64,000 nt of DNA from assembly GCA_036971615.1 (NCBI GenBank), contig JAYKKR010000038.1, positions 1 through 64,000 of the forward strand, read 5' to 3'. The DNA is from Amyloporia xantha (lineage: Eukaryota > Basidiomycota > Agaricomycetes > Polyporales > Adustoporiaceae). The notes below the pieces were generated by a model. That model made no database searches and was not told where the DNA came from. It saw only the letters and a list, made by a program, of their open reading frames with translations. Positions 2,971-56,545 of the stretch are shown here, one piece after another; the stretch's first letter is position 1; every line of letters begins with the position of its first letter. Made by a program: the position numbers and the translations under genes.

Positions 2971-5900
2971 CTACAAATTCGACAAACGCCAACTCAAATG
3001 TAAAGACGACCTCATATCCTTATGCTCCATCCAACCACTCATGTTCTCACTGTACTTGACTCCAGCTCCGTCTGAGTGAAGAACCATGGATGCCCTACAG
3101 CCCTTAAAATGCAAATTGAAGTGAGTGAGACGCTTTGAGAGAAATACCACCAAATCGCCATTCTGCAAAGGCAAAACAAGTCCCGCTTCAACCAAACAGA
3201 GCTCTCCACCTTCAAAATCTCCAATGGGAAGGACAAGGCAGGCTTCCAGATCTTTCACATCTCTGTGAGCATTGGTCGCCACATTGATGTTGAGGACAAA
3301 TCCACTGAAAGGATGGCATGGAGAGACCTCGCGTCCTGGCAGAAATTCAACAAAAGCCTCCAGTGACTTGCAAATCCCTGGGAGACGTCTCTCAAGCTAA
3401 TGCCAATGGCTAAGTACTCAATATATCAGAAAGGAGAAGCAAGCAACACACCTTCATACGTATCCACTCAAAAATTCTTGGAATGAGTTACAGAGATTGT
3501 CGTACTCAGCTTGATTGCATAGAAGCTCCTTGGAAACATAAGCACCAAATTGTTGGTGATTTGTGTGAGAGGCATTTGCACGACGCAGATGCAGGGGATG
3601 TGTATCTTTTGGAGCATCGTCACCCTGTAGAAATAATCAATCTTACAACATGTAATGCATATAGGAAAGACAAACCCTTGTGATGTTGCGCGCATACCAG
3701 GAGAAATGAAGGCAAGGAAACCGCCTCTCTGCACTCCCATCCTGATGGGAACTGTCCATATCCTGCAAGGAATAACCTTCCTTTGTACCGACAGCAAGTG
3801 CGGTGCGAATGTTGCGCATCAAACTTTCACGCATGTTTTGAGGCATGTCGCACGCTATGAAAGCCATCAATTTGTCCTTCTTGTCTCGTATGTCAATCTC
3901 TTGCCTAAGTAGATGGTGAGATAATGAACAAGAATGCGGCGAATGACTTACTCTTGCAACATGTCATGCTCCAAACGCACATAGTCTTCAGCAAAGGTTT
4001 TGACCCCATCAGAAGAATACAGGTCATTGATCTGCAAGACGTATCATGTTGAGAAAGAAAATAGAAGAATGTATGAGCTACTCACTGATTGCGCGGCGTC
4101 ATCCAGAGTATGCACAATATATGCCTGACTTGCACCAAGGCGCTCTTTGTTTGTCCACTGACCATGCGCCTCAGGGTTGCCAGTAGGATAAGGAATATGA
4201 CGATTAGCAGGAGCATCGAAATCAAACAGAGTGCGCAGAACATGATAGTTGGGCGATGCGGAGTCAGGATTTTGGAACTGGTTCGCGACTGCAAGAGTGG
4301 GCACAAAAAGATCATCATGGCTATCAGAAAACTCATCGTGGTGGTCTTTCTCATCCTCCGAGTCGCTCAGAGGCGTAGGTGGACGAGACGTGGAGGAGGC
4401 GGTGGCATGGAGTAGATTGCTACCCATGATATGAAGAGACAATACCTCAGCATTGTCGTTCACAGGAACTAGGCATGATGCCCATAGAGCACGATTTCGC
4501 GTCAGTCCGGCAAAGGTTCTGTATGTGAAATCAGACGACAGGGCTGTTCTGAGTAAAGAGCACATACCTCTCTTTAATCTGATCGAAGAATGCGTCTGAC
4601 TTGTCAAGATCTCTGCAGTCTATCTCTGTCGGCAGGCCACACTCTTGCAGAATGGCACTGGAGAAGAGGACTGAGATGCGTATGGGAATATAAGTCCTCA
4701 GAAAAGAAATGAGAGGAATTATGCGCGTAATGATGTCTTTGCCTATGTTGGTATCTGATCCATGACTTAGCGCGAGATAATGTGAAAGACAAATAGATGA
4801 GTGGCTTACGCTCTTGGGGAAAGCGGAGTGCATTGCAAATGGCTTGGATTACCTCATCCTTTGTTCGCCCTAGGTCTCTGGGCATATCTCTAGCCGCTAT
4901 GACCATGAGAAGATAAATAGATCCTGGAAAAGAGCTGCAATCAGTGAAAATGAGATATTGTAGATACACGACATACCTGCGCTTGCCAAAGCAGCGAACT
5001 TGTAGCCCTGAGCAACCCAATTGCCAAACGTCCACTTTGACGGCGCGCTGGGATGCCCCTTGACCTTGACCATCCACAATCGCTGTGTCGTCATCTTGGG
5101 ATCATGTGCTGTGATACTAGATCAATAGAAAATGTCGTCAAATCTCATGGAGGGTGATAGAAATTAAGAACACACCTATGCACCTTAGCCGCAAGCTCAA
5201 TCTTGGAAACTAGTCCCAGGAATGATAGGCCAGTACTCATTCCCTCAAAATAGTTGACGCGTTTGACCAAGGAAAACAGGTCGTTAGTAACATAGACAGA
5301 ATTGCCTGCGTGGAGGCCCCGACGCCCTCCACCATGTTTTTCAGACTCAACATCCACTGAAGACAGTCCTCACTCTGGACGTTGCTCTTGGAGCCCTGTG
5401 CCAGATGAGACATCAGCTCCTGGGCTTGGTCACCTGCCCCGCCTCCCGCAACAGCAGGCTGGGGACTTATCCTCCAGAACCTGCCACCCTCCCAAGCCAC
5501 ACGCGCCTCATCATCAGGAGGAACCACTAAGGAACCCCCCCGTGGGTTGATTGGCAATGGTGTCCCTCCACGAGTGTCACAATTCGACTTGCGAGGTTTG
5601 TGCCTCTTCGGAGGAGGCTCATCCGGATCACCCGCAACGCCGGTGCGAGCGTGTGCGAGAGGGAGTGCTAGAGCGCATCCTAGCGACCTCTTCATCCCTG
5701 GCTTCTACAGGAAGGGGAGGCCCTTGCTCCTAGTAGCATAGAATACAGATGTAGTCAGTCGAAATGAGGAGAAATCGGCTGTGGAACTTACGCCGACAGT
5801 CTGAGAGGGAGTGCTAGAATGCATCCTAGCGACCTCTTCATCCCTGGCTTCTACAGGGAGGGGAGGCCCTTGATCCTAGTAGCATAGAATACAGATGTAG

Positions 5901-6222
5901 TCAGTCGAAATGAGGAGAAATCGGCTGTGGAACTTACGACAGTCTGAGTCCCCCTATTGGCCTCTATCTGTTCAGGAGCCACACTGGGGCCACGGGATGG
6001 GGCCGGAGTCAAGTAAGCATGGCTGTTGGACACAGCTGAGACATTAGGGGTAGCCAAGGGAGTCACTCCAGACAGAGAAGTCGAGGTGGCAGCATCGAGG
6101 TTGTTGAGGACAGTAAGCACAGCAGGTGGGAGAGTGTGCGGAGGCTGAGACCTTACAAACTCAATGAGAACAGCAAGGTCTGAGTCCGAGAGCTCCAACG
6201 AATCCGGAGTGCCGCCAGCCAT
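2971..6222 (-). CDS. Large KDZ-associated protein with C-terminal 2OG-Fe(II) dioxygenase (TET/JBP-like) domain
   Basis: A leftward gene of roughly 15 short exons. The first exon starts at 6222 (MAGGTPDSLELSDSD). A Pro/Ser-rich region and a long helical region of unknown type follow (pieces around 5695-5240, 5077-4604, 4607-4090, 3870-3480). The last exon carries the catalytic core: GFVLNINVATNAHRDVKDL with the HxD iron ligands, GDFEGGELCL, the distal ligand in THFNLHFKG, and the 2-oxoglutarate-binding Arg in CRASMVLHSD. All metal and cosubstrate ligands are present. Enzymes of this class oxidise 5-methylcytosine or related substrates; the substrate here is unknown. The 5' end holds a 146 bp tandem duplication of an intron plus exon (5657-5937). 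After it the frame is off by one base (SRTRS frame against TGVAGDPDEPPP frame), so the gene may be damaged at its N-terminus. Confidence 0.62.
5657..5937. repeat. Tandem duplication (period 146 bp) of one intron plus one exon
   Basis: Two head-to-tail copies of about 140 bases start at 5657 and 5803 and differ at only a few positions. On the minus strand each copy is a complete intron (donor GTAAGTTCC, acceptor TACTAG) followed by an exon reading GPPLPVEARDEEVARM. The duplication adds an in-frame second copy of that peptide to the protein of the dioxygenase gene. Near-identity of the intron as well as the exon suggests that it is recent. Confidence 0.75.
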
Positions 6223-48360: not shown

Positions 48361-48693
48361 CTGACCAAGCCATAGCACAACTTGAACCTCAAAGAGTGCT
48401 GTAATTGACAGTCATTGACTCATGGTGGGACAACGTTGACCTCAGTGAGCTTAGTCTTCCGGTCACATTCGTGAACGTACGTGGCACAGGATCCGTATAA
48501 TGTCACAAAGATCCATAAAGTTGCGAGAATAAAATGACAATCCTCCCTAAATGTTAACATTACACCAATCACGATACATGTCATGGTACAAGCGGCGTTG
48601 TACCCGCTGAAAATACAGCGCGTAGGAGCTGCAGCCCGATGATGCACAGCAGAGCGAACAAATAAAACATCAGCAATAGACGTGCGCTCGCGC

Positions 48694-50137
48694 TTACTGC
48701 TCGTTGACAAAGACAGCGGCCATGCCCATGCCCGAACCGATGCACATGCTCGTGACGAAGATCTTGCTGTTCGTCTGCTTCGCGATGTTCATACCCGTGG
48801 CAATCTGGCGCGCGCCAGCTGCAGAGACAGGGCGAAAAAAGTGGGTCAGCATGCACGTATAGGTAAACATATAGGACAAGGTACGTACTCGCTCCCAGGG
48901 GATGCCCGATGGCAATCGCGCCACCCCACACGTTCACCTTCGCAAGGTCGATCCCGAGCTCCCGCACACAGTATAGTGCCTGGCTCGCAAACGCCTCGTT
49001 GATCTCGAAGAAGTCGACGTCCTCCTTCGTGAGCCCAGCGCGCTCCAGCGCCTTCGGGATCGCGTACAACGGGCCGACACCCATGATCCGCGGAGGCACG
49101 CCTACAGCGACGGCGTTGACAAACTTGCCTACAATGGGAAGCCCAAGGCGCTTCGCCACGCTGCGCCGCGCGAGGATGACCGCAGCGGCGCCGTCCGAGA
49201 CCTGGGACGCGTTTCCCGCATGAGTTGTGCCGTCCTTTGAGAAGGCGGGCTTGAGCCGCGCGAGGCTCTCCTTGGTCACCCCGTCACGGATGCCGTCGTC
49301 TGAGGCGACGACAGTGCGCGTCTCCTGCTCGGTCTTGGGGTCGACCCAAGGGACGGTTAGGGAGACAATTTCGGGTGTGAAGCGGCCCTCCTTTTGGGCC
49401 TTGGCTGCCTTCTGGAAGGAGGACGCGGCGAAGGCGTCCTGATCCACGCGGGAGACGCCGAATTCAGCGGCGACGTTCTCGGAGGTGATGCCCATGGGAA
49501 CAAGGCAGTCAGCTGCGAGGGGATGCGCGAGGACTTCCTCGGAGAAGCCGTCTGGGTTGGCACCTGCGTTATAGCCGAACGTCATGGACTCGACACCCGC
49601 GCCTATCAGGAAATATGTGGATGAGCGGAATTGTAGGAGATAGGAACAGTGTTCGATGTGACGCACCGAGCCCAATGTCGATCTGGCCTGACTTAATCTG
49701 CGCTGCGATGGTGTTCACGGCGGCAAGACCAGAAGAGCATTGTCTGTTCACCGTGCTGATAGGCGTTGAGACAGGGATGCCTGCGTGCAAGGCGGCCATG
49801 CGTGCAGCGTTAGCGCCGCTCCCTGGGGGTAGTACATTGCCAACAGTGATGTCCTCAATGAGAGCAGGATCAAGGCCAGCTTTGGTGTATGCTGCGCGAA
49901 GGACACCTGAGAGAATCTCCTCTGGCCGCGTGTCCTTGAAGCCGCCCTTCTTCGCCTGGAAGCGGGGTGAGTATGAGCGGAAGATACGCTGGGGTTGGTC
50001 AGAATGAAATCACGGACCTTTGTGATGGCCGAGCGCACGGCGGCGACGATGACGACGTCGTCGTCGTTCTTTGCGAGGACCTTTGCCTTGGCCGACGAGG
50101 AGGTGATGTTTGAGACTGCTTGGGCGATGGCGGACAT
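48694..50137 (-). CDS. 3-ketoacyl-CoA thiolase, peroxisomal (ACAA1/FOX3) type
   Basis: Catalyses the last step of fatty-acid beta-oxidation, splitting 3-ketoacyl-CoA with CoA to acetyl-CoA and a shortened acyl-CoA. Exons 50137-50018, 49955-49667, 49602-48889 and 48818-48694 join in frame to 415 residues, the usual length. The three catalytic blocks are complete: NRQCSSGLAAV with the acyl-accepting Cys, NEAFASQ followed by GGAIAIGHPLGATGAR with the catalytic His, and SMCIGSGMGMA with the second Cys. GFKDTRPEEIL, GITSENVAAEFG and GNASQVSDGAAAVI are typical of the ACAA1/FOX3 branch. I do not see a classical N-terminal PTS2 signal or a C-terminal PTS1 (it ends in NEQ). The gene is intact and stands alone. 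Confidence 0.93.
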
Positions 50138-52349: not shown

Positions 52350-53264
52350 CGGCCTCGTCGAGCACCCCGCAGTACTTGTCTCACTCGCCTTTATCAGCAG
52401 CGGTCAATATTGCAACTACTCTCAAGGAGACGCACAACGTACCCGACTCCGTGTTAAGACCTTTTAGAATGGGGCACCATCAGCTTTGATGTACATCATT
52501 ACACGACAGTGTATAACTCACCGTAGTGATCATTGAGAGCACCGGCCGTCACAAGATCCGGGCGTTCTTTGGATGTAGTTGTCAATAATGCAACTACTCT
52601 CGAGGACACACAACGTACTAAACTCCGAGTTGAGACCTTTCAGAACGGGTGCCATCAGATTTGATTCACATTATTTCACGACAGTGTACGACGCACCGTA
52701 GTGATCATTGAGAGCACCGGCTGTCACGAGATCCGAGGGTTCTTTGAATGCAGCTGTCAATAGTGCAGCTACTCTGAAGGACACACAACGTACTAAACTC
52801 CGCGTTGAGACCTTTCGGAACGGGTGTCATCAGCTTTCATGTACATCATTGCATGGCAGTGTACAACTCACCGTAGTGATCATTGAGAGCACCGGCCGTC
52901 ACGAGATCCGAGCGTTCTTTGAATGCAGCTGTCAATAATACAACTGCTCTCGAAGACACGCAACGCACTGGACTTCGCGTTACGATCTTTCAGAACGGGC
53001 GTCATCAGCTTTGATTCACATCATTGGACGACAGTGTACGACGCACCGTAGTGAATTTGGAGAGCACCGGCCGTCACGAGATCCGAGCGTTCTTCGGATG
53101 CAGCTGTCAATAGTGCAACTGCTCCGAGTCAAGGACACGCAACGTACTGAACTCCGCGTTAAGACCTTTTAAAATGGGGATCATCAGCTTTGATGTGCAG
53201 CATTATATGACAGTGCATAACTCACCATAGTGGTCATTGAGAGCACCCGCAGTGATATCCTCAG
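52350..53264 (-). repeat. Tandem array of a 175 bp exon-intron unit
   Basis: Five or so direct repeats with phase points at 52528, 52703, 52878, 53053 and 53232 (periods 175, 175, 175 and 179), plus a degenerate copy at the left end. On the minus strand each unit is: intron of 60 bases (GTGAGT or GTGCGT to AAAG), exon of 18 bases, intron of 40-44 bases (GTACGT or GTGCGT to GACAG), exon of 57 bases. The coding part is therefore 75 bases, exactly 25 codons, and phase is kept from unit to unit. Copies become more diverged towards 52350. Confidence 0.85.
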
Positions 53265-53471
53265 CTGTATATAATTCTGATCTGAGTGAATATCGACGCT
53301 GTGGATGTCGATTGTCTTACCACGACGACTGAGATCTACCGTGATAATATGTCTATTATCAGTCAAGAATTAAAAGATAGTCTGGAAGGACTTACCGATG
53401 GCGGGGCGGGCTACTACACCTAGCGTGAAGAGGGGCACGAGAGCGATGAAGGCAGTGAGACGAAGCTGCAT
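52523..53471 (-). CDS. Small secreted tandem-repeat protein, candidate RiPP (dikaritin-like) precursor
   Basis: The start at 53471 opens a signal peptide (MQLRLTAFIALVPLFTLGVV, then ARPAI). Exons 53471-53396, 53335-53321 and 53264-53226 give an 18-residue first unit with a dibasic RR and the ending TAGALNDHY. Full 25-residue units follow, each split over two exons: GLNAEF, then TAFKERSDLVTAGALNDHY. Further exon pairs are 53165-53148 with 53103-53047, 52986-52969 with 52928-52872, and 52811-52794 with 52753-52697. In the next unit the acceptor before 52578 has AA in place of AG, so reading probably ends at a stop near 52523. A TATA-like CATATAAT lies about 65 bases upstream of the ATG. A UstYa-family gene lies 2 kb away; precursors for UstYa enzymes are secreted repeat proteins. 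Classical KR sites are lacking (RR once, otherwise KER or EER), so an effector or structural protein is the alternative. Confidence 0.6.
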
Positions 53472-53534
53472 GTTGAACTGGCTGAGATGAACGGAGGGTC
53501 CAGATGCTGGTATGAAAGTGTCTGTTCATCATGG

Positions 53535-53543
53535 GATTATATG
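53535..53543 (-). promoter_or_regulatory. TATA box candidate of the secreted repeat protein gene
   Basis: CATATAATC on the minus strand, 65-75 bases upstream of the ATG at 53471, a usual distance for a short-leader fungal gene. Confidence 0.4.
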
Positions 53544-55502
53544 GGATTTGAGGCCAGACGAAACACTCGCAAATATCGTGATGATATTGCAACATAACAA
53601 GCACAACATACATGAGTGCTCACCAGGAGAATTGGCGCTGTTCTGATTCATGCTCATCAGAAGGTGCTGAAGGGCTTCCCGTATTGCCAGAAAGCGTCTG
53701 TCGTCTGACAGCACGAGAACAAGGGTCAGATGCAAACTGCAATTCGGAGTTCGGGTGTGATCCCCGCCCCTGTCCATCCTTCGGCACCAATGCGCTTCGG
53801 GATCCGTTCGGAGCTTTGACAATATTTACGATCTCATACCCAAATCCGAAGCAATGGTTGCTCCTGCCAACAAAGACCTGGGCTTGAAACGCACCCAACC
53901 TAGTGGAATACACGGATTGTCCAGAATATAGGGTTCCTTGTGCCATATTGTTGCATCGCACCACCTTATTTCATCGTCCACCGGGGTAGTGCATCTTGCG
54001 GCCCTCATGATGTAATGGGTTTCTCTAATTAACGAAGGCTATTGATTTGCGGGCGCTCTGAATCGTGTCTTGCGGGTCAAAATGATCTTGACATGTAATA
54101 TGCCAAAGGAATACCTGCAAGAGCAATTTGAAGAATACGTAACACTTCTCATGGATTCCGGGGTGCTTTCGCGTGAAGGAAGTGTGGGGGTCGACACTAC
54201 CAGAAGGTGGAACATTTATTTTTAACGGTCTCTGTGATAATTGAAATACGAAGCTGATTATTCGAGACAAATGGGTTATCATACGTACTCGCTTATAGAA
54301 TCCACGTCGGTTTTGCACGGCTTTGGTGAAGAATAAACGCGAATCCCTTATCAGACACTCACCTCCTGTATTTCCCAGATATTGGGTGTCTTCGTCAATC
54401 ATGTCCCACGCTACGCTTGGTTCCAAGCAGACATGAAACGACACTCTGGGTTCCAGCAATGGTGAGTCGGCGAATAGGCACATGTTAGGGTTTATGCAGC
54501 AAGTGAACTTTGAATTATTGGCCGCTCTATCCACCAAGATGATCCGCAGAAGCATGGATGCAGTTATGCATGACTCCTACCAAAGGAGAAGGCCTTCTGG
54601 AACAATGGCAGCCTACTAGTCGCTCGATGGAAGAGTTAATGGGGAGTGTATCTACTGCAAGCCAGCTTCGGAGGCTCCGAGAGACGCACGTTTGGATGAA
54701 ATATGGCGGCTTTGTTGGTCATGAGAACTAGCTGTGTGTAGTGTCATAGGATAACAATATTCAAGTATAAGAATAGGACGGACCATTCATTTGGAAAAGA
54801 GGATGCAGCGACGGCCATCTTCAGTGCAATGGAGCATTCGGGCGACATGACCCCCGGTACGGAGGACCCCAAATCCTTCAGGTGCTATCAATTATTAGAG
54901 ACCAATCAGACGAGAATGTGGCGATGTCAAGCCTTGGTCGTCAATGCTGTCATTATAAATAAGGAAGGGCCCCGTAAATCGTCGAGCTGCCTGCATACTG
55001 CTAATGGAATGACAGGTCATGATGGAGAGTGCATTCAAAGGGGGGATTCCCATGACTCGTCGAAGTAATCTCGAGACCTACCCGCATGCGAAAATTTCTG
55101 AATACGGCTTGTGAAATGACGGCTCGTGATGGAGAGCACATTGCCTCGAAATTGGGGGGTTAACTGGGAATAGCGATATTGAGAAGATTGAGACAGTGCA
55201 TAGACATAAGAAGGTGAGGCTCCTCTCAACAAGATCACATGTCAGGCGCTTGGGTGGGAATCAGAATATCCAATAGGTCGGTCATAGATCGGGCATCCGG
55301 AGATCAAGAGGCGCTGTTCTGCTACCCTGAGTAGGCGTCTGTGGCAAATCAACTCACTACGAGAAACCCTCGAATGAGTACAATGTCCAGGCCGCGTGAT
55401 TCACCTGTCCCAAAGTTGAAGTTAGTTTCCGAGAAAAGGTAGGCATAAGTAGACTTCCGGGAATACAGTCATCGTGCGCAAATTTCGCCCCGCTTTCTCG
55501 AC
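53544..55502. other. Region between the repeat protein and UstYa genes; unidentified minus-strand ORF
   Basis: A leftward frame of 176 codons (54555-54025) can be read with possible introns. It contains LLEPRVSFHVCLEPSVAWDM and NVPPSGSVDPHTSFTRKHPG, with protein-like composition but no domain I recognise. More leftward fragments lie at 53964-53620. They may belong to one unknown gene between the two candidate pathway genes. Two short imperfect direct repeats (GAAATGACGGCTCGTGATGG type) lie near 55000 and 55117. Confidence 0.3.
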
Positions 55503-56545
55503 ATGCCTGATTCCACGTTCGAATACCTGCCCGTGAAGCATGATGGCGGTTCAACCGACAACTTGCTTGAACAGGCTAGTGACACCTCTCTCCCGCCGCG
55601 GACGCTCTGGGAACGGTGGACGTGGTATCGCATCGCTCCTTGGCTAGCGCATGCCTTGCTACTTTGCTTGTCGGCAGCCCTGTTCCTGCTGTCTCTTCGC
55701 CCTAGCGAGACTGAATGCGGGAAAAGGCTGTCAATCTTCTGTAAGAAGTCGTTGATGTGCAAAGTGCATTTCACTCACCCTAAGCTGCAGCACCTGCACT
55801 GGAGGCCGTCGAGTATCACAATGTCAGATTCAATGGCACTCAGACTTACCCATCCGAATTCCGAGGGGCGCCTGACCCGGCACTGGATGCTGAGTGGGAC
55901 AGGCTATCGGCTGACAGTCTGTCTTCCACTTATCGTTGCTTTAGAATGGTCGCTTATGCATGAGATCTTACAGTGAAGCCGTTCCGAGTTACAAGAGACA
56001 TGCTGTCGAAGATAGGCAAACCGGAAAGACGCTCCCTTGTCAAGTTTCACGATGAAGACGGCGGAGGATATATGGCAACACTCGAATTCGGCCATCAATT
56101 GCATTGTCTAGTATGTCGATTCTATACAAGATATCATGAGCCCCAGAGCCCATCTGATGTGACCCTATAGAACATGTTGCGAAAACATACCTACTTGGAA
56201 TTTTATGAATCATTCGACGTTTCCATCCTAGACGGTCCAGAGAACTATCGAAACCACTTAGGTGATAGCGAACGTTGCAACGGTGTCGTTTCTCCGTATT
56301 GACGCACATTTGTAGACCATTGCATAGAGATGTTGCGACAGTTCATCCTATGCAAAGCTGACGTGGGAGTTATTACATACGACTGGGTCGAAGGCTACAG
56401 CGTGCCTTATCCAGACTTCAACACATGGCACAAATGCAGGAAGGTCAATAAGCTTATGGAATGGAATCATGAGAACGAGCTTAGTGTACCCCTTGACCAT
56501 GTCACAAGGTTTGATGAGGTAGAGGATTTGACCACGCCTCCGTGA
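55503..56545 (+). CDS. UstYa-family (DUF3328) oxidase/cyclase
   Basis: UstYa-type proteins are membrane-anchored, probably copper-dependent oxidases that form ether or carbon bridges in fungal ribosomal peptides (ustiloxin, asperipin, phomopsin) and related products. Exons 55503-55740, 55791-55916, 55974-56110, 56171-56261 and 56316-56545 join in frame to 273 residues with no stop. The N-terminus is cytosolic, with one transmembrane helix at about residues 45-67 (APWLAHALLLCLSAALFLLS). The family signatures are complete: EYHNVRFNG, the first HxxHC motif as EFGHQLHCLNMLRKH, YRNHLDHCIEMLRQFILCKAD with the second HxxHC motif, and VEGYSVPYPDFNTWHKCRKV. Typical length is 230-290. The nearest neighbour with a matching role is the secreted repeat protein at 52523-53471. 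It is the only UstYa copy seen in the window. Confidence 0.9.

Follow-up and report, generated by a model that had tools for sequence, protein, structure and literature searches.

The dikaritins, a family of ribosomally synthesised and post-translationally modified peptides (RiPPs) that includes ustiloxin, phomopsin and asperipin-2a, derive from precursors with a signal peptide and tandem cores between Kex2 sites, with a tyrosine in the core and a UstYa gene nearby (PMC7329392). The characterised dikaritins are of ascomycete origin (PMC12048977), and a single UstY is enough for asperipin-2a (PMC7329392). The epichloecyclins, which derive from the ascomycete precursor GigA, also have imperfect repeats and probable Kex2 processing, and the GigA peptides are cyclic and cross-linked through tyrosine (PMC9233826). 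In Basidiomycota, the pairing of Kex2-processed repeat precursors (KEPs) with DUF3328 genes is already known: one survey reports a DUF3328 gene within 15 genes for 103 of 1680 basidiomycete KEPs, and for 8 of 12 of one Sistotremastrum type, and raises the possibility that there is scarcely any cyclisation in basidiomycetes (PMC7329392). Sixteen UstYa-like genes, six of them developmentally expressed, are described from Pleurotus (PMC8893723). Here we analyse a locus in the polypore Amyloporia xantha at which a gene for a repeat precursor, prec1, stands head-to-head with a UstYa gene. It lies in the first 64,000 nucleotides (the window) of contig JAYKKR010000038.1, hereafter C32, of the 46.8-Mb assembly GCA_036971615.1; other C-numbers denote contigs of the same genome.

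Together, the two genes probably form a minimal dikaritin-like RiPP cassette that arose through amplification of small exon modules. As in dikaritins, a UstYa gene with two HxxHC motifs lies beside the precursor and each predicted core holds an aromatic residue; the precursor plan and the linkage also resemble those of the basidiomycete KEPs with DUF3328 neighbours (PMC7329392). Unlike the described dikaritins, this locus belongs to a polypore, has one UstYa gene, and encodes its precursor in mini-exons with Kex2 sites at the splice junctions. The EDYXI core of ustiloxin and phomopsin (PMC6339444) is not seen here, where the cores read NDHYGLNAEF or DDFYTLDENL, and the GigA core is different again. 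The exon layout is the interesting part. In the open-licence literature searched, including the available text of a paper on introns (PMC6374014), we came across no account of precursors with mini-exons or of splicing that makes Kex2 sites, and we treat the novelty of the layout as a lead rather than as proof.

The precursor and UstYa genes in the window

The spliced model of prec1 is in frame from ATG to TGA. The features of the locus are as follows.

52381..53471, minus strand: precursor gene prec1, 13 exons, 408-nt coding sequence, 135 amino acids
53396..53471, minus strand: exon 1, MQLRLTAFIALVPLFTLGVVARPAI, signal-peptide-like; the first exons of two paralogues (described below) are similar
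53321..53335, minus strand: exon 2, DLSRR, with RR preceding unit 1
53226..53264, minus strand: exon 3, unit 1, AEDITAGALNDHY
53148..53165, minus strand: exon 4, GLNAEF (unit 1 tail) plus the first base of the K codon
53047..53091, minus strand: exon 5, unit 2, (K)R-SDLVTAGALQIHY
52969..52986, minus strand: exon 6, DRNAKS, unit 2 tail
52872..52916, minus strand: exon 7, unit 3, (K)R-SDLVTAGALNDHY
52794..52811, minus strand: exon 8, GLNAEF, unit 3 tail
52697..52741, minus strand: exon 9, unit 4, (K)P-SDLVTAGALNDHY, a junction without a dibasic site
52619..52636, minus strand: exon 10, GLNSEF, unit 4 tail
52522..52566, minus strand: exon 11, unit 5, (K)R-PDLVTAGALNDHY
52443..52460, minus strand: exon 12, GLNTES, unit 5 tail
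52381..52388, minus strand: exon 13, final codons and stop, ending CGAGTGA as in paralogue 2
52397..53247, no strand: tandem repeat DNA, 175-bp unit, 4.8 copies, 82% matches, beyond chance
53472..55502, no strand: divergent intergenic region, 2.0 kb between the start codons of prec1 and the UstYa gene
55503..56545, plus strand: UstYa-family gene, exons 55503-55740, 55791-55916, 55974-56110, 56171-56261 and 56316-56545, 273 amino acids

All 12 modelled introns of prec1 are in phase 1, have GT...AG borders and measure 52-61 nt. They separate five units of 21 residues each, mostly of the form SDLVTAGAL followed by xxxYxLxxxx, and each unit is assembled from a long exon of 45 nt, or 39 nt in unit 1, and a short exon of 18 nt. 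The predicted protein reads, in order, MQLRLTAFIALVPLFTLGVVARPAIDLSRR / AEDITAGALNDHYGLNAEFKR / SDLVTAGALQIHYDRNAKSKR / SDLVTAGALNDHYGLNAEFKP / SDLVTAGALNDHYGLNSEFKR / PDLVTAGALNDHYGLNTESGE. Its N-terminus is hydrophobic (best 15-residue mean hydropathy 2.45), making it a candidate secretion signal.

The UstYa gene matches Pfam PF11807 with an E-value of 6e-59 (200 bits, cut-off 25). Its product has the motifs HQLHC (residues 162-166) and HLDHC (196-200) and one strongly hydrophobic, transmembrane-like stretch at residues ~44-63. When the query was aligned with 43 of the 120 homologues found (44 sequences in total), both HxxHC motifs proved invariant. The closest named proteins come from Taiwanofungus, Postia/Rhodonia, Gymnopilus, Mycena, Daedalea and further agaricomycetes, Fomitopsis and Fibroporia among them. 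The start codons of the two divergent genes are 2032 bp apart. Sequence matches among solved structures were weak and mostly calmodulins (best E-value 0.002, an RCaMP chain), and were judged to be chance. For P0002, a homologue from Taiwanofungus, an AlphaFold2 model of moderate confidence (mean predicted local distance difference test score 76.5, predicted template-modelling score 0.59) was compared with solved structures using Foldseek, and none of the 61 matches listed had an E-value <=0.001; the fold of the UstYa oxidase family may therefore still have no solved example.

A sequence-only reading of this stretch had described an intact UstYa/DUF3328 gene with two HxxHC motifs 2 kb from a gene for a signal peptide followed by tandem 25-residue repeats with TAGALNDHY. 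The five exons in frame, the 200-bit match and the 2.0-kb spacing bear out the first part of this description, and the minus-strand gene with its signal-peptide-like first exon and 4.8-copy array bears out the second. The repeat length needs correction, as the spliced unit (a 45- or 39-nt exon plus an 18-nt exon) has 21 residues. The same reading had counted a single dibasic RR site, with KER or EER elsewhere, as evidence against Kex2 cleavage. In the splice model, KER and EER are encoded by sequence 5' of the acceptor, within the intron, and Lys-Arg is made when the A that ends the short exon joins AA-CGC; the acceptor reads AAAG|AACGC, or CGAAG|AACGC in one unit. KR is thereby formed at three of the four unit junctions and KP at the other, with RR ahead of unit 1. 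Given this model, the tandem repeats are bounded by dibasic sites, as in KEPs, and the main counter-argument of the sequence-only reading, that Kex2 sites are lacking, falls. Its interpretation of the locus as a dikaritin-like UstYa-precursor pair gains support both from this and from the recurrence of the pairing in the genome (below), with "RiPP" still a predicted designation.

The junctions also bear on the idea that the product is a whole secreted repeat protein, surface or effector-like, which escapes Kex2 and which UstYa modifies in place or has nothing to do with. The one KP junction would fit such a protein, as would an alternative acceptor AG, 12 nt upstream and in frame to give KER, that precedes three of the four 45-nt exons of prec1. 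We set this acceptor aside: the AG is absent before the fourth of these exons and before all six corresponding exons of the paralogue 2 array, and its use would require introns of 40-44 nt, against at least 51 nt in the models of prec1 and paralogue 2. KR is also formed at six of six unit junctions in paralogue 2 (where GR, not dibasic, stands ahead of unit 1), and a precursor on C45 has KR at the end of all 12 units. An uncut repeat protein is thus a very improbable product.

In the cassette reading, the mRNA of prec1 would be spliced from the 13 modelled exons and its protein would enter the endoplasmic reticulum through the N-terminal signal. Kex2 in the Golgi would cut the KR and RR sites that splicing creates, giving peptides of ~19-21 residues of the form SDLVTAGAL-NDHYGLNAEF, while the KP junction would yield a double-unit peptide. 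The membrane-anchored UstYa oxidase would perhaps recognise SDLVTAGAL and, by analogy with the chemistry of its family, cross-link the core via the invariant tyrosine. Trimming by other peptidases would then release the core.

Paralogous pairs on contig C32

Two further precursor-UstYa pairs lie ~35 to 51 kb beyond the window pair on C32.

C32:104824-103401: paralogue 2 precursor, 17 exons, 177 amino acids, seven units such as SDLVTAGALDDFYTLDENLKR
C32:106761-107807: paralogue 2 UstYa gene, adjoining the precursor array (array 2)
C32:94559-95296: paralogue 3 precursor, partly degenerate, four units
C32:92723-91680: paralogue 3 UstYa gene, facing the degenerate precursor

All three pairs are divergent, with 2032, 1937 and 1836 bp from ATG to ATG. 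When 12-14 kb were compared, cluster 1 shared only the precursor-UstYa block with clusters 2 and 3, which share more with each other; the minimal unit common to the three clusters is therefore two genes. Repeat-exon lengths are constant (18 and 45 nt) in the 13- and 17-exon models and intron lengths drift. The sequence-only reading had noted that no second UstYa copy is adjacent. This is correct for the immediate surroundings of the gene, but the contig carries two more such pairs. Its remark that every repeat contains a tyrosine holds for all five window units and extends to 16 of 16 units across the three paralogues (5+7+4).

A DNA search of the genome for the repeat family returned two arrays, both beside UstYa genes. 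All 10 exact genome-wide matches to a DLVTAGAL-type pattern fall inside the two good C32 arrays; allowing up to two mismatches gave 51 matches, 41 of them outside the C32 arrays, compared to 31 for a reversed control. As neither search picked up the degenerate third copy, further distant copies may be present. A repeat family common away from UstYa genes, which would have spoken against the proposed link, was not seen in this genome: the DLVTAGAL arrays and the degenerate third copy are all beside UstYa.

Comparison of the consensus sequences of array 1 (prec1) and array 2 revealed no differences at 21 sites in codon positions 1-2 of the conserved segment and four at 11 sites in position 3 (Fisher P 0.009). 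In the core, taken as the short exon together with the end of the long one, 12 of 30 sites differ, much as in the introns (35 of 110; P 0.51). This supports a coding constraint on the conserved segment that is visible only in the codon positions. Within array 2, divergence in the short exon is 0.087 and 0.127 at positions 1 and 2 and 0.413 at position 3, and array 1 has no such bias (0.25, 0.233 and 0.233), the units of one array being non-independent in both cases. Gene 2 thus appears to keep its core constant, the cores differ between genes and SDLVTAGAL is kept, a pattern expected of a recognition segment followed by a core; across the three copies of the cassette, cores have diverged and the conserved segment has changed less. 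We also considered positive selection on the core, as all-pairs identity is 51% in the short exon versus ~75% in introns. The consensus comparison (P 0.51) removes this signal and we claim only unconstrained divergence between paralogues. For UstYa copies 1 and 3, nonsynonymous (dN) and synonymous (dS) divergence are 0.064 and 0.325 (NG86) or 0.073 and 0.227 (YN00), with dN/dS of ~0.2 and 0.32, respectively. These estimates indicate that both copies are under purifying selection.

UstYa loci in the rest of the genome

Searching the genome with the PF11807 profile gave 32 matches, exon by exon, which we grouped into 19 UstYa loci, or 17 if C52 is left out. Matches on C26 and C52 come in pairs with equal scores, as would be expected if one of the two contigs duplicated a section of the other as a second haplotype. 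The sequence beside the loci was examined with a rough, home-made internal-repeat scan, which single-core precursors would escape. The scan gave 108-730 matches at the three C32 loci versus 0-4 per locus in shuffled controls; it also fires on other C32 repeats, and a two-unit precursor on C18 escaped it and was caught only by DNA similarity. By our own count, a repeat precursor or its remains lies near 8 of the 17 UstYa loci, with six intact-looking and two degenerate. Those beyond C32 are listed here.

C45:394117-395522: precursor of 14 exons with 12 units that end in SYSDYY; 12 of the 13 introns fall between K and R
C18:314990-314683: precursor, two units, one exon each
C19:376707-377429: precursor, 12 units in a single long exon, tyrosine before RR/KR or the end in 11
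C13:509222 to ~507740: precursor, 13 repeat exons, each exactly 45 nt long and encoding DLVKREGGEVYTFPD or a slightly altered form, with KR within the exon; the model covers the repeat exons, and the join from first exon to repeats is outside it
C13:~501.8-502.6 kb: degenerate copy including a signal-peptide exon, ~3 kb from a UstYa match at 498.7 kb

The four intact-looking precursors beyond C32 differ from prec1 in sequence, and three of them have one exon per unit. Five of the six intact-looking precursors have the mini-exon split. Divergence within the C13 array is concentrated at third positions (0.444 per site, versus 0.027 at first and 0.034 at second positions), with introns 73% alike, and ten C45 exons likewise have a third-position divergence of 0.188 versus 0 and 0.015 at the other positions. 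Introns are in phase 1 in the C32 precursors, splitting the K codon, in phase 0 in C45, between K and R, and in phase 1 in C13, where KR is inside the exon. As intron phase and the place of KR differ, the C32, C45 and C13 precursors are not simply copies of one gene. On these gene models, such precursors have repeatedly been built in this genome by the tandem multiplication of small exon modules, with one or two exons to a unit.

No repeat precursor was found in stretches of 9.9-17.5 kb at six UstYa loci (C45 439-451 kb, three on C34, C4 and C35), or within ~1.5 kb either side of the two C26 loci and the C42 locus. A 54-nt repeat near UstYa on C4 looked unrelated by eye. The precursors outside C32 were mostly found by looking beside UstYa, and therefore give no measure of how frequent arrays are without it. 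The pairing itself, whose lack of conservation would have told against the proposal, recurs within this genome in three C32 copies and in other precursor families. The DLVTAGAL-type pattern search above and a DNA search with the C45 family are less subject to the bias of looking beside UstYa. The latter returned, besides itself, one match beside the UstYa pair on C18 and one weaker match at C45:470 kb, ~24 kb from the nearest UstYa match.

Several observations weigh against a functional, cyclising cassette at this locus. Some concern the state of the genes. The KP junction and the deviant tail of unit 2 suggest that the window copy may be eroding, and precursor 3 is degenerate. In UstYa copy 2, translation from the ATG departs within exon 1 from the frame of copies 1 and 3 and ends at a stop codon after 87 residues, so this exon does not stay open, through erosion or an assembly error. 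Taken together, these signs would fit a window locus that is a decaying, nonfunctional copy of a cassette active elsewhere. We consider this unlikely, as the two window genes keep an open frame across all of their exons (13 and 5) and the dN/dS of UstYa copies 1 and 3 is low by both estimates.

Other observations concern conservation and chemistry. When all codon positions are pooled, the conserved segment does not evolve clearly more slowly than the introns (5/33 versus 35/110 sites, P 0.08). Among ~8000 candidates sharing most words that were scored from the protein set, no homologue of prec1 or of the paralogue 2 precursor was found at E<=1, and none of the C45 precursor at E<=0.01; this absence is weak evidence because only those candidates were scored, and conservation beyond the Amyloporia xantha genome is unproven. 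Pfam matches of the precursors were weak and, except for DUF1068 (C45 precursor, 25.5 bits versus a cut-off of 25), below the cut-off; we consider them chance repeat matches. No peptidase, methyltransferase or tyrosinase was found in 20 neighbouring open reading frames scanned against Pfam, in which multi-exon genes are only partly modelled. The predicted core of ~10 residues is longer than the 4-residue cores reported for ustiloxin and phomopsin (PMC7329392). Finally, where agaricomycete Kex2 products have been observed by mass spectrometry (in Coprinopsis, Lentinula and Pleurotus), they are reported as linear or minimally modified (PMC9769878).

This last point raises the alternative that prec1, like the repeat precursors of Coprinopsis cinerea, gives rise to a linear Kex2-derived peptide, signalling or pheromone-like, that is secreted unmodified, with the proximity of UstYa incidental. 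The low share of basidiomycete repeat precursors with a DUF3328 neighbour in annotated proteomes (only 103 of 1680; PMC7329392) would agree with this, as would a C45-family relic at C45:469952-470093, degenerate but with a signal-peptide start and YSDYY-like remains, whose nearest UstYa match is ~24 kb away. However, UstYa accompanies the precursor in all three C32 copies with the same head-to-head layout, as the only block common to cluster 1 and the others in the 12-14 kb compared; further precursors also stand near UstYa genes, and tyrosine is in 16 of 16 units. A linear product is therefore not likely, although it is the least improbable of the alternatives to a cassette.

If the cassette reading is right, the exon layout has consequences for genome mining. 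It is possible, though we hold this only tentatively, that UstYa-coupled precursors in polypores, and perhaps in basidiomycetes broadly, are commonly tandem mini-exon modules whose protease sites or unit boundaries appear only after splicing. Such precursors would be hard to see in repeat and Kex2 searches of automatic annotations. The KEP survey began from annotated proteins (PMC7329392), so mini-exon genes could be missed, and the published rarity of cyclised Kex2 peptides in Basidiomycota would in part be an annotation artefact. The mini-exon precursors of this genome thus offer a testable reason for the basidiomycete gap in protein-level mining. A search rule for mushroom genomes would be a UstYa gene with a ~95-180 bp tandem repeat containing GT/AG in each unit. 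Predicted peptides for mass spectrometry include SDLVTAGALNDHYGLNAEF, SDLVTAGALDDFYTLDENL, EGGEVYTFPD and SYSDYY. As the repeat exons are phase-symmetric, exon skipping could tune which peptides arise, and the conserved segment with its changing core would provide a natural experiment on UstYa substrate choice.

Neighbouring genes and repeated DNA

The scan of 20 neighbouring open reading frames gave one hit over the cut-off, a thiolase, with weak F-box/LRR-type and Trypco2 matches below it.

48584-49714, minus strand: thiolase gene, Thiolase_N 6.4e-39, Thiolase_C 3.4e-34

The thiolase is likely a primary-metabolism neighbour of the cassette.

The window, which is the start of C32, begins with ~27 copies of CCTAA at positions 1-137 (TTAGG on the opposite strand). 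A 30-base CCTAA pattern matches 172 times, overlaps counted, on each strand of the genome; among the matches listed, C1 and C5 have clusters that begin with the first bases of the contig, and C6, C7 and C9 carry clusters as well. A CCCTAA pattern had no match in the genome. From these clusters at contig starts and the lack of CCCTAA, the telomere unit of this genome looks like TTAGG. The same unit is reported for Boletus edulis (PMC12134998), and TTAGGG for most basidiomycetes of one survey (PMC10100673).

A 146-bp unit is present in 1.9 copies (97% matches) at window positions 5657-5938, ~6 kb from the telomere. A repeated PNVSDEAKEHSRQ-like motif marks two related stretches, one at ~28.1 kb of the window and the other at ~63.9 kb of C32; the motif is reminiscent of the conidiation protein CON-6 family. 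GATCTGACCACGGCTGGTGCGCT occurs eight times, five times on C16 (195-259 kb) and three times on C18 (44-67 kb), mostly ~11 kb apart, a pattern that would fit a long tandem unit, for instance ribosomal DNA.

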